Source: Pilaira anomala
Lineage: Eukaryota > Mucoromycota > Mucoromycetes > Mucorales > Mucoraceae
DNA length: 64,000 nt
Assembly: GCA_025716855.1 (NCBI GenBank)
Contig: JAIXMQ010000008.1
Span: 434,001-498,000, forward strand
Direction: 5' to 3'
Shown here: positions 3,467 to 47,650 of the stretch, one piece after another
How positions within the stretch are numbered: the first letter of the stretch is position 1
How the letters are laid out: each line of letters begins with the position of its first letter
Program-made: the position numbers and the translations under genes
The notes under the pieces: generated by a model
Database searches by the model: none
Seen by the model: the letters and a program-made list of their open reading frames with translations, nothing else
What the model was told of the DNA's origin: nothing

Positions 3467-3547
3467 TGAAAAAACGTGCGCTTGTAAGCTTTTTTTTTTT
3501 TTTAAAAAAAAAAAAGAACTTTTTCTTATAGTTTTATTTGTTTAGTA

Positions 3548-4495
3548 AACTCTGCCCAAATTGTACTACTGCTAAACACAGTATATTTACCTTGTGATCC
3601 TGAAAATAGCGACCTATATGAAAACAAAATCGTGACTATGAAACAAATTTACTGCACAGTATTAAATTATTCTGATGACTTGAATACCAAAAACTTGAAT
3701 TCCTTTATAAAATGGTGCTCATATAAAAAGCTTGACTTTTTGCAAGTGGAAACAAAAAGAAAGATCGATGAAGTTGACGACAAAAAAACGACAAGGACAA
3801 GATCTCTATATGTGTTAAAAGATGACTATCTTGGTAAGGACCCTTCAAAATACCTAAATAAGTGGCCACTAAGATATAGCTTTGTAGATGACGTTGCTTA
3901 TAAGATTAACAACTATCTTCCATCATACCAAAATTATATAAAGAAACTTAAGGAGGAGGGCCATACAATTATAGGATATATTAGAAAGTCGCCTGGAAAA
4001 GAGCCTGATGATAGAAGACGCCAACTTTTAGAAGCTATGAGTTTAAATCTCAAAGAAAGATCGTTGGTAGATGTGGTTTTTGCTTCTCCTTGTTCTCAAG
4101 CTTCTGATCCAATGGAAAGTAGAGATAAAAAACAACATGCATTATTGGACCAGATTGGTGTTGCGGGAAGCACTCAAGGTGAAGCCTATCATGTATTTAC
4201 ATATTTAATAAACACTTAATCCTTACTTCTTGTAGACTTAATGAAATTTATAGCTTCAAAAAACAAAGTTTGTTTGGTCACTTTGGATTATGCCGGCCTC
4301 AGCACAAACTGTTTAGACTTGAAGGAATTCTTAAGGTAAAATAAAAAACAATAAAAAAAGAAAAAGGTAGCTTCTAATAATATTCTAATAGTAAAAAGAC
4401 TCAAATCAAAAAAATTATAGTTGATCTCTTTCCCTATACAAATGAAATGACTGTGTATGATTGTAACCAGCTATTAGAAGATCCTGTACGTTTAA
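3548..4495 (+). pseudogene. Putative resolvase-like (serine-recombinase-fold) protein
   Basis: The main exon is open from about 3603 to 4219 (about 200 residues). A short upstream frame with a CPNC pair (3553-3564) joins it by a one-base shift. Downstream, a piece at 4233-4334 reads VCLVTLDYAGLSTNCLDLKE and ends in a GT donor; another at 4388-4482 follows an AG acceptor. The motif TIIGYIRKSPGKE near residue 114 resembles the YIRKS catalytic-serine motif of large serine recombinases, and the LDYAGLSTN stretch sits where resolvases have LDRLSRN. The first 110 residues are unlike known HTH domains. I infer a divergent serine-recombinase fold; the expected arginine of the second motif is not conserved, so catalytic competence is doubtful. 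A Mucoromycota-specific unknown family is the alternative. Confidence 0.4.
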
Positions 4496-4733
4496 AGGTT
4501 TTCAATTGTAGAAAAGCTTTTTACCGAAGATCCAAGTAGTTTGCATGCAGTTAAATACTATAGTCAATAATACTTCTATACAATGTGATAATATCCCATA
4601 GTTCTTGATTCCTCCTTCAGACTAATACCTACTTTAACTATTGTTTTTCACACCATTCTGTTTCATCCAGTCCTACCTCTCAATTATGTGTAAATTATAA
4701 ACTAAAAAATAAACAGATTCATAAGTTAATGGG
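4496..4733. other. Spacer between resolvase-like ORF and MULE
   Basis: About 240 bp of AT-rich DNA with no recognised feature. Confidence 0.5.
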
Positions 4734-4760
4734 AATCTTTATTTGGACGGATTTTTTTTA
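4734..4760 (+). repeat. Left TIR of the MULE
   Basis: AATCTTTATTTGGACGGATT and following T-run; its reverse complement recurs at 8673-8699 with a 3-nt indel. Confidence 0.65.
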
Positions 4761-5103
4761 CTTCTTGAGCTTCAAACCATTATTTCTGTGGATTGAATTT
4801 TTGTAGGCTTAAACGATTAACCTCATAGAGGAACCACTTTATGCTCGATTTTTTTTATTATTCTACACCTTTCATTCCTCGAGTTACGTCCCTACGCGAT
4901 ATGCGACTCATTGTTTTATTCTTTATGTATTTAATAAAATTTCAATTTTACAAAAAAAAAAAAAAATACATTATTCATCTTTTGCTATTAACTAAACCAA
5001 TATAACAGTAGTAATTTTTTTTTATAATTCGAGTTACCAATCTTTGCTTTTAAACTGACACGATTTAACAATAGACTTATTATAATATTCTAATATCTTC
5101 AAT

Positions 5104-7564
5104 ATGATCAATCATGAGTCTGAAGATGTTATTTTCACAAGAATTATTGAGGGCTACTCTGCTGATATTTCAGAACTCGCTGATTTACCTCAAGCTTGCG
5201 AAGACCCTGAGGACTTCACTTCAGAAGTTGATAACGAAGTTGAATCCCAAAATAATGTAGAAACCTATATGACGCCAGTTCCCGTATTTGTTACATCTGT
5301 TAAGAGATACGAGTCATTTGATCTTGCATTTGGAGAAGTAAAAAGATACACAGATAGTTTGTGTATCAATGCAACTATTACCAGTTCGAATTGGGAGAAA
5401 AACGAAGGAGAAGAACGACAAAGAAAATACGGTATCATCCAATGCCATAAAAGTCGTGAATCTGCTAGCTCCGTTTATGCTGTAAAAGGAACACCTGGTT
5501 CTAGAAATGACCGCTCAGCTAGATGTTCATGTCCTTTCAAGTGGACCATTAATAGAAAACAGGCCAAGGATGAAAATGGCAAAAATAACCAATATTTTTT
5601 TATCAAGGCCATCAACAATCAACATAATCATGTACCCAACAAAAAAATATTTGTAGCACTCAGTAATCAACGCCAGTTGAGTATGGCTCAATTAAAGTAC
5701 ATGCAAGAGATGATGGAGTATGGTACCACACCTTCTGATATGGTAACTGCCCTTTCAGAGCGATATCCTGGCCAAGTCTTTGTTAACAAGACCATTTATC
5801 AAGCAAGGCTTCAAATCAAAAAAAAGATTTTGAACAATCGCACTCCTGTCCAATATCTGGTCGACAAGTTAGCTTCTACTAAGTGCTACCGTTACGAAAT
5901 GGATTTTGATAACGAGGGGAGATTAAACAAGCTGTTCTTTGCGCATGAATCATCCATTGAATTATACAACCGCTATCCAGATGTTCTTGTAATGGACAGT
6001 ACCTACAAGACAAATAAATTTGGTATGCCCTTATTGGAAATTGGCGGCATGACCAATTCCAATGCCACGTTTTTATTAGGATGTATTTTTTTGTCATCAG
6101 AAGAAAAGTATTCTTATGAGTGGGCATTGAAGCAAGTGGATAGATTTTGTTTTCAAAACAATACACCTAGTGTAATTGTTACTGATCGCGAAAATGCTCT
6201 AATCAACGCTATTGCCAAGGTCATTCCAGGATCAAAACACTTTCTCTGTCGCTGGCACATATCAAATAATGTTTTCACCCACATTAATGAATGCTTCAGA
6301 TCGCTCTCAAAAGATGATATGGAGATGATATTAAACGGCTGGAAAAACTTAGTCCAAGAATCCTTTACTTCTGAGGAGTTCAATGAAAATCTGGTAACTT
6401 TTAAAGCTATTTTACCTGCTTCAGGAAAAATTGCTTTCGAGCAATACCTTGAAAAAGAGTGGATCCCTCTTAAAGAAAAGTAAGTTTAAGGAATATGAAA
6501 TGAAGCTGTATTTTTACTAAAAAAATGTAAATTCTTATTGTTTTAAGGTTCGTAGAAGCTTGGACTAAAAAGTATAGGCACATCAACAGCACCTCCACAT
6601 CAAGAATCGAAGGAATGCACGCAACAGTAAGGAGGTATATCAAAGTTAGTACCAACGACATTGACATCGTAGTTGGTAGACTTGATAAAGCGATCACTGC
6701 TCAAGTCAACAGAATTAACCAAGAAAATGCTGATTCACAAGACAAATCTTTGAGCAGCATCAGCAACATTGCTTTTTTTTTACCTGTTATAAAAAAATAT
6801 CAACATTTGCTTTGACCAAGGTTTTTCGCCAATATGCTATGGCAAAGATGAGTGTTAAGTACCCTTCGGTCCAGAGGTTCTCTATTGGTGAGTGTAAAGA
6901 GAGCTTTAGCAGTAAAATGGGAATCCCATGTTCTCATGAAGTAAAATCAATGCTTCTTTCTAAAAAGCAATTGATGAAAGAAGACTTCGATAGTCAATGG
7001 TGGCTTTCCAAACCAGTTGAATCGGTCAACAACTGCTCCCAGCTAACCGATTCTATAATTTTTGAGTCTGATGAGATGTTTGCATCTCAAGAGGTTATTA
7101 ACGAGATGAGCACTCCTGCTTGTTCCTCGCAAGAAAATCAGATGCTCTCTCCTGAAGATCTTAATATCATCCAGCAAAGGTACGTAAAAATGGAAAAGAT
7201 AAACAGTTTGCTAGTAAATTTGAATAACATAATATGTTTAAATGCTAGATACAACAATGCTTTGCCGCATCGACAAGCTGCAATTCGTGCATTCTTCAAA
7301 AATCTCGCTAACAATGAGTTGCCTTATGAATTGAGCGATCCTAATGAAGCACGTAGAAAGGGAAGAAAAAGAAAAGCTGGACTGAGTACCTCAAATAGAA
7401 ATATTTCAAGTACTCAACGTGATTCATCTGCGTTTGAGTTAGTAATTGCTGAGCAGCAGGCTCGTATTACGAAATGTGGCAACTGTAAGGGAGCTGATCA
7501 TAACAGACGCAGTTGTCCGGTGAGCCAACAAGAGCTCTCACAAGAAAGTAGAGGTATGCTTTAA
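5104..7564 (+). CDS. MULE transposase with FAR1-like N-terminus and zinc knuckle
   Basis: Exon 1 (5104-6479) encodes an acidic leader, a FAR1/WRKY-GCM1-like region (SFDLAFGEVKRYTDSL, CSCPFKW, and HNHVPN with spaced Cys/His), and the MULE catalytic core. D298 lies in VLVMDSTYKTNKFGMPLL and D361 in VIVTDRENALINAI, followed by HFLCRWHI. A 68-bp intron (6480-6547) leads to exon 2 with SRIEGMHATVRRYI, which supplies the catalytic Glu. A SWIM-like GEC...GIPCSHEV follows, and a CCHC knuckle CGNCKGADHNRRSCP lies at about 7474-7518. One frameshift is needed at the A-run 6791-6798: with eight rather than seven A the frame continues as VIKKISTFALTKVF. The last codons can end at 7562-7564 or, more likely, splice at a GTATGC donor (7554) into the RTC4-like exon. 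Confidence 0.85.
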
Positions 7565-7631
7565 TCCCATAACAAATTTGATATTAAATAAATATTAATA
7601 AAATGATACGTATTACATGACTTTTTGACAG

Positions 7632-8629
7632 ATTTGCATTTGAATATGCCACAGAGAAAGCGACCTCGTGTTGAAAATTCTGTAAATGCATCTGTTCTTT
7701 GTACCAACGATAGCAATCTTGCTGTTGAAGACAATAACAATGGTGATGCATCCGTTATTGCTCGTACTACTATCACCAATGATGACGAACTATTGGATTG
7801 TCCTATCTGCAGAAAATTATTATTGTTTGATGAAAGATTTGAAGGCAACCTTGTCGAGTTAAACTTTTTGAGAGCAGCAATGATGGAAAGATACTCTGTT
7901 CTTGCCGATAAAAAGAAAGAGTTAGCCTCTGGGAAGGGAAAGCGAACAAATAAAAAGTTCAAAGAATTGATGGAAGGATTAGATGCAGAATTCTGCCGTC
8001 AACATGATTTGTTTGAGCTGAACGTTGTGTTAAAAAACAACGAGTGCCACGAGTTGGCTTTAAGATTACCAAGAGAGATAAAACTTAGTGTTTTGAAGAC
8101 TAGAATCATTTCTGTAATACAGGGTGAAGATTTTCAGCAGATGATCATTTCTGGAAATAGTTACTTTAGAGGAGCAGCAAAATCAATGTTTGATGAACTT
8201 CAAAATGAAGGATATGAAAAACGGTTTGCAGGAATGGCTTTCGCAAACAGTCATGCTGGGCTTTACTCTGTAAGTATGAATTATATTATTATAAAATGTA
8301 AAGGTGTCATCTAACATTTTTTGTAGCCCGGTTACTATGGTCATGATGGAGCAGAAGTAATCTTCCGAAGTGCAATGCAACACTTGACAAGAAACTTTCT
8401 TTTGACAACAGCTCCTTGGGCCGAAGAAGTAGCCCAAGAATCTAATTACCTGGTCTTTTTAAGACATACCATGTTACCCGAGATTGGATACCGTTTGATC
8501 CAGCAGGATATTCTGGATATGGGTTATGAAAGTAACGGTACAGAAACTATCATGGCAGAAAAATTAATGATGATCGCTGCCAACATCAGCTACAGTAAGG
8601 CTCATGTCAAAATAGATGAAGATAATTAA
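7632..8629 (+). CDS. RTC4-like domain protein, probable C-terminal part of the MULE transposase
   Basis: Two exons (7632-8270 and 8327-8629) are joined by a GTAAGT...TAG intron. The first contains a basic patch PQRKRPRV (likely nuclear localisation), then DCPICRKLLLFDE, a Cys pair in the place where RTC4 (restriction of telomere capping protein 4) proteins have CPxC. The second contains PGYYGHDGAEVIFRSAMQHL, then LRHTMLPEIGYRLIQQDIL and MAEKLMMIAA. This matches the RTC4 C-terminal domain signature: GYYG-x-G, a V/MLxPE stretch, LIxxDM/IL, and a closing helix. If translated alone it would begin at the ATG at 7646. The AG acceptor at 7630-7631 and frame G|AT make a fusion with the upstream transposase equally plausible. 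The domain's molecular function is unknown; in yeast it affects uncapped telomeres. Confidence 0.7.
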
Positions 8630-8672
8630 CATCTTAAAATAAAATAAAATTTATTACAAAAATTCAACTCAG

Positions 8673-8699
8673 AAAAAATCCGTCCAAATAGTAAAGATT
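8673..8699 (-). repeat. Right TIR of the MULE
   Basis: AAAAAATCCGTCCAAATA followed by GTAAAGATT; inverted copy of the 4734-4760 end with three extra bases. Confidence 0.65.
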
Positions 8700-8890
8700 T
8701 TTTTTTTTTTTGAGTGAGAACTTTGGCCGTATACCCATATCAGGGGGTCATTTTGAAAACCGGATAAATTCCACACCCTACCGGGCGTCAAATTTTTTGA
8801 CTGTTAGAGACAAGATATGCTTTTATTATTTGAACTTTTGAGAGTTTTAGGATAACCGTAACTGTAACTAAGTTAGAGCCTACTATATAA

Positions 8891-46696: not shown

Positions 46697-47579
46697 CATA
46701 AAGAACTGAAGGCTTTACTCCTTCTATAATTTTTGGATCTCTTAGGAGGAGATGGCAAATCATCATCTCCCATACCACCAATAATTATTATCATCCATGT
46801 TGTTGTTACACCCATAGAGTTTTATGCATTTCTGAGGATTCCATGTTGTCTTTTCTCTCTCAAGCTTTCATCAAGTCATTTTAAGGCTATTTCAGTGGAA
46901 TCACCTTCTTGTTCTCTAGGACTACACTGGTCGCATTTCTCGTTCGACGTGTGTCACCTTTAGTTGCTCTAACTGTTTTACCTTTTCTGAGCTTGTAGAT
47001 ACAGCGCCTACGAATTTTTATTGATTAAATACATAAAAAAACGTGACTTTTTCCGAAGATGTTAAGAGGTTTTGCTTGTCGAAAAAAGTTCAAGGGTTGC
47101 TAATAAAGAGATCCGCCCTAATCATTTTTCGATTCTTGTTCGGTGATATCGTAAATACTAGAGGTGCTATCATATCAAGACTTTGTTAGATTTTGATAGT
47201 CCAAGTACGTTAAAAGATATACGATGTATAAAATATAGTTTGCGTGAGCACCAATTCTTGTTGTATAAGTAGGACTACTAAGAAGTTTATTAAAGGAATC
47301 GATTTTACAATTTAAAAGAGAAATAAAGATTAATATTATAAAAGGGATCAAATAGGTATTGATAAATCTTTTAAGATTAATATGTAAAGTAAATTGACTG
47401 ATTTTTATTGTTGTAAGAACTATTTTTGGGTTTTATATATTTTTTTAAAAGCGGGAAAAAAAAAAAGGAAAATTCTCTTCATTGGATAATCCACAAAAAA
47501 ACAGAATTTGTAGTAGTGTAACAACTTCCAAGGTAAGCTACATACACGACATCAAGGCAACAAAATATTAAAAAGAAAC

Positions 47580-47650
47580 TCTCCGACTGGGAATTGAACC
47601 CAGGTCTCCCGCGTGACAGGCGGGGATACTCACCACTATACTATCGAAGA
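47580..47650 (-). tRNA. tRNA-Asp (GUC)
   Basis: The minus strand folds as a 71-nt cloverleaf. Acceptor stem TCTTCGA/TCGGAGA; D-loop ATAGTATAGTGGTGAGTAT; anticodon arm CCCGCCTGTCACGCGGG with GTC as the anticodon; T-arm CTGGGTTCAATTCCCAG. Box A (TAGTATAGTGG) and box B (GGTTCAATTCC) are intact. No intron. A T-rich stretch follows for Pol III termination (TTTCTTTTTAA on the minus strand). Confidence 0.95.

Follow-up and report, generated by a model that had tools for sequence, protein, structure and literature searches.

In Pilaira anomala, a MULE gene is predicted from its splice signals to join a transposase (PF10551), ending in a CCHC knuckle, across an intron at 7554-7631 to an RTC4-like module (PF14474). 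That this fused anatomy is correct and that the RTC4 module serves the element is, in our judgement, highly probable. The gene lies in a window of 64,000 nt, by which we mean the whole stretch of DNA analysed (GCA_025716855.1, JAIXMQ010000008.1, positions 434,001-498,000 of the forward strand); comparisons covered 34.25 Mb of genome in 225 contigs, where the window copy is designated C204. The transposase-RTC4 fusion had been put forward in an original prediction and, as an observation, is confirmed at these coordinates by splice signals, reading frame, profile matches and other copies. Of the accompanying interpretation, two points are supported, namely that the fusion lies within a MULE bounded by TIRs and that a host-type gene was captured; the suggested role in binding DNA ends or protecting excision sites is conjectural. 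The positions of the copies gave no support to targeting to telomeres.

The window copy (4731..8702, + strand) was aligned with C163, C211, C1, C29, C147 and C43; it starts from GGGAATCTTTATTTGGAC and its right limit is approximate. The outermost part of its left TIR (4731..4760, +) is a motif common to both ends of C163, C211, C1 and C29, and the right TIR (about 8666..8702, -) is eroded. Inverted repeats enclosing both parts had been placed at 4734 and 8673; the enclosure stands, with the left end corrected to 4731 (GGGAATC) and the right repeat to the limits just given. A terminal-motif search did not find the exact motif at the right end of this copy, and no target duplication is present around this copy. 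Just upstream, at 3506-4219 (+), is a 237-aa stop-to-stop frame containing GYIRKSPGKEPDDRRRQLLEAM, which we take to resemble the start of a serine recombinase; no Pfam family scored over its cut-off in this frame. The sole Rfam match in the window at the gathering threshold is a tRNA gene at 47579-47650 (-).

Five exons, with limits derived from an eight-copy alignment, are predicted on the + strand of the window copy. Exon 1 (5104..6479) encodes the N-terminal part of the transposase and the MULE domain (5983-6270; 100.1 bits for 5104-6483 against a gathering cut-off of 27.6). It is followed by predicted intron 1 (6480..6547, GTAAGT..AAG, beginning with GT in seven of eight aligned copies), exon 2 (6548..7179), predicted intron 2 (7180..7248, GTACGT..TAG) and exon 3 (7249..7553), at the end of which a knuckle of the form C-x2-C-x4-H-x4-C was recognized by eye (7475-7516). 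Predicted intron 3 (7554..7631, phase 1) forms the junction between transposase and RTC4 parts. Exon 4 (7632..8269) holds a basic stretch, MPQRKRPRV (7646-7672), then CPIC (7799-7810) and CRQH (7994-8005), and RTC4 homology begins within it. Predicted intron 4 (8270..8326, phase 0) lies immediately 5' of PGYYG, in the position and phase of an intron in the host RTC4 paralog at C170, and exon 5 (8327..8629) contains the main PF14474 match (8327-8626, residues 1-77, 32.8 bits, gathering cut-off 23.7) and the stop codon. Introns 1, 2 and 4 are additional to the single intron originally described. Also absent from that description was a frame break in exon 2, where the window copy differs in length by one base from the other copies in a homopolymer run near 6790. 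This difference, which may be a real change or an assembly error, breaks the frame, and as it stands the window copy could not make the fused protein.

At the junction itself, the GTATGC donor at 7554, the 78-bp intron and its TTGACAG end at 7631 are present as first described, the splicing being predicted, and the phase-1 junction G|AT gives D-LHLNMPQRKRPRV, followed by the CPIC pair and the RTC4 match. A failure of the RTC4 profile to match was one outcome that would have spoken against the prediction; instead the profile scored over its cut-off both in the window copy and in the protein of C163. Spliced in silico, the latter carries the MULE domain at residues 293-388 (97.9 bits, 5.1e-28) and RTC4 at residues 946-1064 (38.1 bits, 2e-9). 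The intact copies C163, C211 and C1 each have a single frame of 1082 aa in five predicted exons. Intron 3 retains GT..AG and its phase in six of the seven copies covering the junction (lengths of 78, 76, 76, 76, 77 and 77 bp), although these seven are not independent, C163, C211 and C1 being near-identical; in the remaining copy, C43, the intron is 91 bp with no GT at the aligned donor. As judged from these alignments, the conservation of intron 3 exceeds chance.

An alternative is that the element makes two proteins, a transposase that stops shortly after entering intron 3 and, from its own ATG at 7646, an RTC4-like protein comparable to the second gene of some plant MULEs. The unspliced frame does stop a few codons into intron 3, exon 4 has an in-frame ATG five codons from its start with the basic stretch next to it, and both forms could arise through intron retention. 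Against this, the two parts are only a 78-bp intron apart, the splice signals and phase have survived length changes of 1-2 bp in the six copies, and the broken copy C29 has ACG in place of the ATG at 7646 in an RTC4 frame that is otherwise open. We consider separate proteins improbable and prefer a single spliced product.

We then turn to the distribution of the RTC4 part across the genome. DNA of exons 2-3 has matches at no fewer than eight places and is matched over its full length in seven (C204, C163, C1, C211, C147, C29 and C43), with C161 matching 373 of 1005 bases. In all seven copies that reach the 3' end of the transposase the RTC4 part follows in the same order and orientation, as expected if both domains belong to the family, and transposase copies lacking it, which would have counted against the fusion, number none of the seven. 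The RTC4 part was not found at C161 and C182, which have transposase sequence that does not extend to the transposase 3' end. Pieces of transposase with no RTC4 part and no match to exons 2-3 occur at C182, C173, C13, C189 and C153, besides shorter ones. Across the genome the MULE-domain profile has 24 matches and the RTC4 profile nine, the latter comprising the seven copies of the RTC4-bearing MULE family and two host genes; other MULE families in the genome, such as that at C143 with an 813-aa open frame, gave no RTC4 profile match. Partial arrangements were also observed: RTC4 pieces after a piece of transposase at C188 (L029), a left subterminal piece adjoining an exon 5 piece at C154 (L073), and an RTC4 part at C164 (L072) with no transposase seen upstream within the stretch examined. 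From their sequence, we interpret these three as fragments of family members or as copies derived by deletion. Further matches at C133, C179 and C122 are known as hits only.

Evidence for mobility came from the element termini. C163 (4338 bp), C211 (4343 bp), C1 (4316 bp) and C29 (4299 bp) have GGGAATCTTTATTTGGAC at both ends in inverted orientation and TIR matches of 147-197 bp at 97-99% identity. Each TIR contains three to five TTTGGACTGATTTTT-type motifs, which are possibly sites for the transposase. Exact 9-bp target duplications flank C163, C211 and C1 (TTTAAGGAT, AAGGATAAA and ATTTGTAAA), and that of C29 is imperfect (7/9); at C147 no TIR was found by the terminal-motif search. The family thus combines the features expected of a MULE, namely the PF10551 domain, TIRs and a target duplication within 8-10 bp (9 bp here). 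Candidate acidic residues of the catalytic DDE triad were recognized by eye. Flanks of 1 kb on each side showed no similarity at E <= 1e-5 in any pair among C163, C211, C1 and C29, and the occurrence of copies at unrelated sites rules out an artefact of two adjacent host genes. C1 is identical to C163 over exons and introns and C211 differs from C163 at three positions, a near-identity which suggests recent movement of these copies. Others are broken, among them C161: the frame is interrupted in C29, C147 and C43, with stops in addition in C147, and C43 also runs into a contig end. A host-type domain within an open frame could also be expected of an immobile, domesticated RTC4 gene of the host that had gained a transposase. 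That explanation is extremely improbable: TIRs and target duplications mark several copies, which sit at unrelated sites, three of them near-identical and others decayed, and separate host RTC4 genes exist at C193 and C170.

Comparison of the window (5100-8650) with L011 and L009 revealed a mosaic structure of the C163 copy (L011), which matches the window copy at 97-100% identity over about 5850-6400 and 6750-7350 and matches C29 (L009) at 95-99% identity elsewhere, the RTC4 part included. The mosaic structure of the intact copies looks as if two subfamilies had recombined or undergone gene conversion.

Substitution patterns point to purifying selection on both halves of the fused frame. For the window copy versus C163, the RTC4 part differs at 70 of 184 synonymous and 68 of 707 non-synonymous sites (dN/dS 0.19, Fisher p 3e-18), with a dN/dS of 0.20 in the transposase. 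Values for the RTC4 part and transposase, respectively, were 0.20 and 0.15 for window versus C29, 0.20 and 0.17 for window versus C147, 0.22 and 0.11 for window versus C43, 0.23 and 0.11 for C163 versus C43, and 0.25 and 0.16 for C163 versus C147. The pairs are not independent, due to shared copies, skipped stop codons, few lineages and gene conversion among copies. C163 and C29 are too close in the RTC4 part for their dN/dS of 0.30 (p 0.04) to be very informative. In the diverged pairs the RTC4 part was as constrained as the transposase or less so, and a dN/dS of about 0.2 indicates that this part has been selected together with the element. These values bear on whether the RTC4 part could be a captured passenger fragment with no function for the element, as fragments of host genes are described as common in MULEs in PMC6446971. 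The low dN/dS of the RTC4 part (0.19-0.25, Fisher p of 6e-16 to 3e-19 in five diverged pairs) largely contradicts such a passenger, the frame is open in the three youngest copies, and zinc-type and core residues are retained; we therefore rejected this explanation as very improbable.

The origin of the module was examined by comparison with host RTC4 proteins. Among 22 host sequences from Mucorales, 53 alignment columns are at least 90% conserved, and C163 and the window copy each keep 31 of these; 22 host-conserved columns are lost in the element rows, and C163 agrees with the host majority at 29 of the 184 remaining columns. As in the Mucorales host proteins (PF14474), the element has the motifs CPxC, CxxH, PGYYG..G and PExGxRLI, and its intron 5' of PGYYG has the position and phase (0) seen in C170, with no intron there in C193. 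Unlike the host proteins, it is set on a long separate branch, and the identity between its exons and the C193 row is about 16-29%. The proposal that a host gene had been captured is supported by these retained motifs and residues and by the shared intron position, the latter suggesting that an RTC4-type gene was captured at the DNA level, introns included. In a tree using 20 of the 23 proteins recovered with a host query, a very long, fully supported branch separates the element rows from all 22 Mucorales host rows, although the root was drawn at the midpoint and age and speed are inseparable. Early capture, rapid evolution or a distant donor may each account for the length of the branch. Because the element branches outside these 22 host rows, its acquisition of a host-type RTC4 gene appears, from these sequences, not to be recent, and recent capture from the genome's own two host loci was rejected on the same ground.

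The two separate host RTC4-type genes are at L015 2688-4127 (-) and L016 2749-3521 (+), C193 being the one lacking and C170 the one having the intron before PGYYG; RTC4 records of Helicostylum and Thamnidium likewise split into two groups. Identity of the C193 protein reaches 94% with one record; with Thamnidium elegans it is 69% and with Helicostylum pulchrum 67%, values that would place the fungus within the Mucorales close to these two genera. The predicted fold of the host RTC4 is largely helical (pLDDT 88), and its comparison with the PDB gave no clear relative.

Searches of annotated proteins with the RTC4 part of the element, from which distant relatives would escape, gave no match at E <= 1e-3 among 2711 candidates (residues 770-1082) and none at E <= 0.1 among 2144 candidates (RTC4 part alone), the latter search not recovering even the host RTC4 proteins. 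As a host RTC4 query recovers 23 Mucorales proteins, close relatives of the element's module are absent from the annotated proteins searched. Gene prediction often masks transposons. Exon 4 and exon 1 were also scanned against viral contigs, where no relative was confirmed.

We propose that the final exons of the transposase gene in a MULE family come from a captured RTC4-type gene of the host, and that one spliced mRNA would yield a transposase-RTC4 protein of 1082 aa. In the RTC4 module, a probable CxxC/CxxH metal site would come first, with helices and the RTC4 domain after it. An accessory module that binds DNA or protein is suggested by its place at the C terminus, by the basic stretch past the junction and by the cysteines and histidine that it has kept. 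Such a module may let the transposase touch DNA ends or a nuclear partner of the host during excision, donor-site repair or target choice, and a transcript still containing intron 3 would encode a transposase lacking RTC4, a possible switch. Handling of DNA ends and their repair is our tentative working choice for the module, a natural guess since yeast Rtc4, described as of unclear function in PMC6162548, is genetically linked to telomere maintenance. More doubtful still is the specific idea that the transposase adopted an RTC4-type factor to manage the ends that it creates, by shielding the transposon ends or donor break or by steering their repair.

Obligate subtelomeric targeting is spoken against by four copies lying at least 445 kb (C1), 316 kb (C204), 131 kb (C147) and 102 kb (C163) from a contig end. 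C211, C29, C43 and C161 are within 22 kb of a contig end, and these ends may be assembly breaks. Three tandem units of TTAGGG were not found in the genome, so that contig ends are not callable as telomeres and the distances are lower bounds.

Several known MULEs provide points of comparison. MULE-Mucorales, as given in Table 1 of PMC6446971, has a 10-bp target duplication, a 40-bp TIR, a SWIM finger and no other motif. Our element resembles MULEs including this family in its MULE transposase domain, long TIRs, 9-bp duplication and C-terminal zinc knuckle, but departs from the tabulated values in that its duplication is 9 bp and its TIRs are longer, and it has an in-frame RTC4-like module. The same table contains MULEs with SET or ovarian-tumour domains, which likewise have a host-type domain aboard, albeit a different one, and does not name RTC4. 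Plant VANDAL and Kaonashi MULEs captured a host-derived ULP1 domain that is conserved as a separate gene, according to PMC13317346. Capture and conservation of a host-derived domain by a MULE are common to both systems, whereas the domain described here is RTC4, fungal and within the transposase frame. A literature search found neither RTC4 and a transposase together nor a MULE with RTC4, and the word RTC4 is absent from the main text of a study that screened 1237 fungal genomes for host-TE fusions. The rust Puccinia novopanici is reported in PMC9370660 to have 45 RTC4 proteins versus 15 in P. sorghi, and, speculatively, this set might be another case of RTC4 on mobile DNA.

Capture of host domains by MULEs has precedents; RTC4 as the captured domain appears to be new. 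RTC4 also joins the host functions recruited by MULEs, here within the transposase chain itself. Kept under purifying selection and fused to a transposase, RTC4, a fungal protein family, would gain a testable biochemical setting in excision, break repair and integration. If the role in end handling were true, RTC4 would be a module for handling DNA ends, and transposition could serve to reveal what it does at the molecular level.
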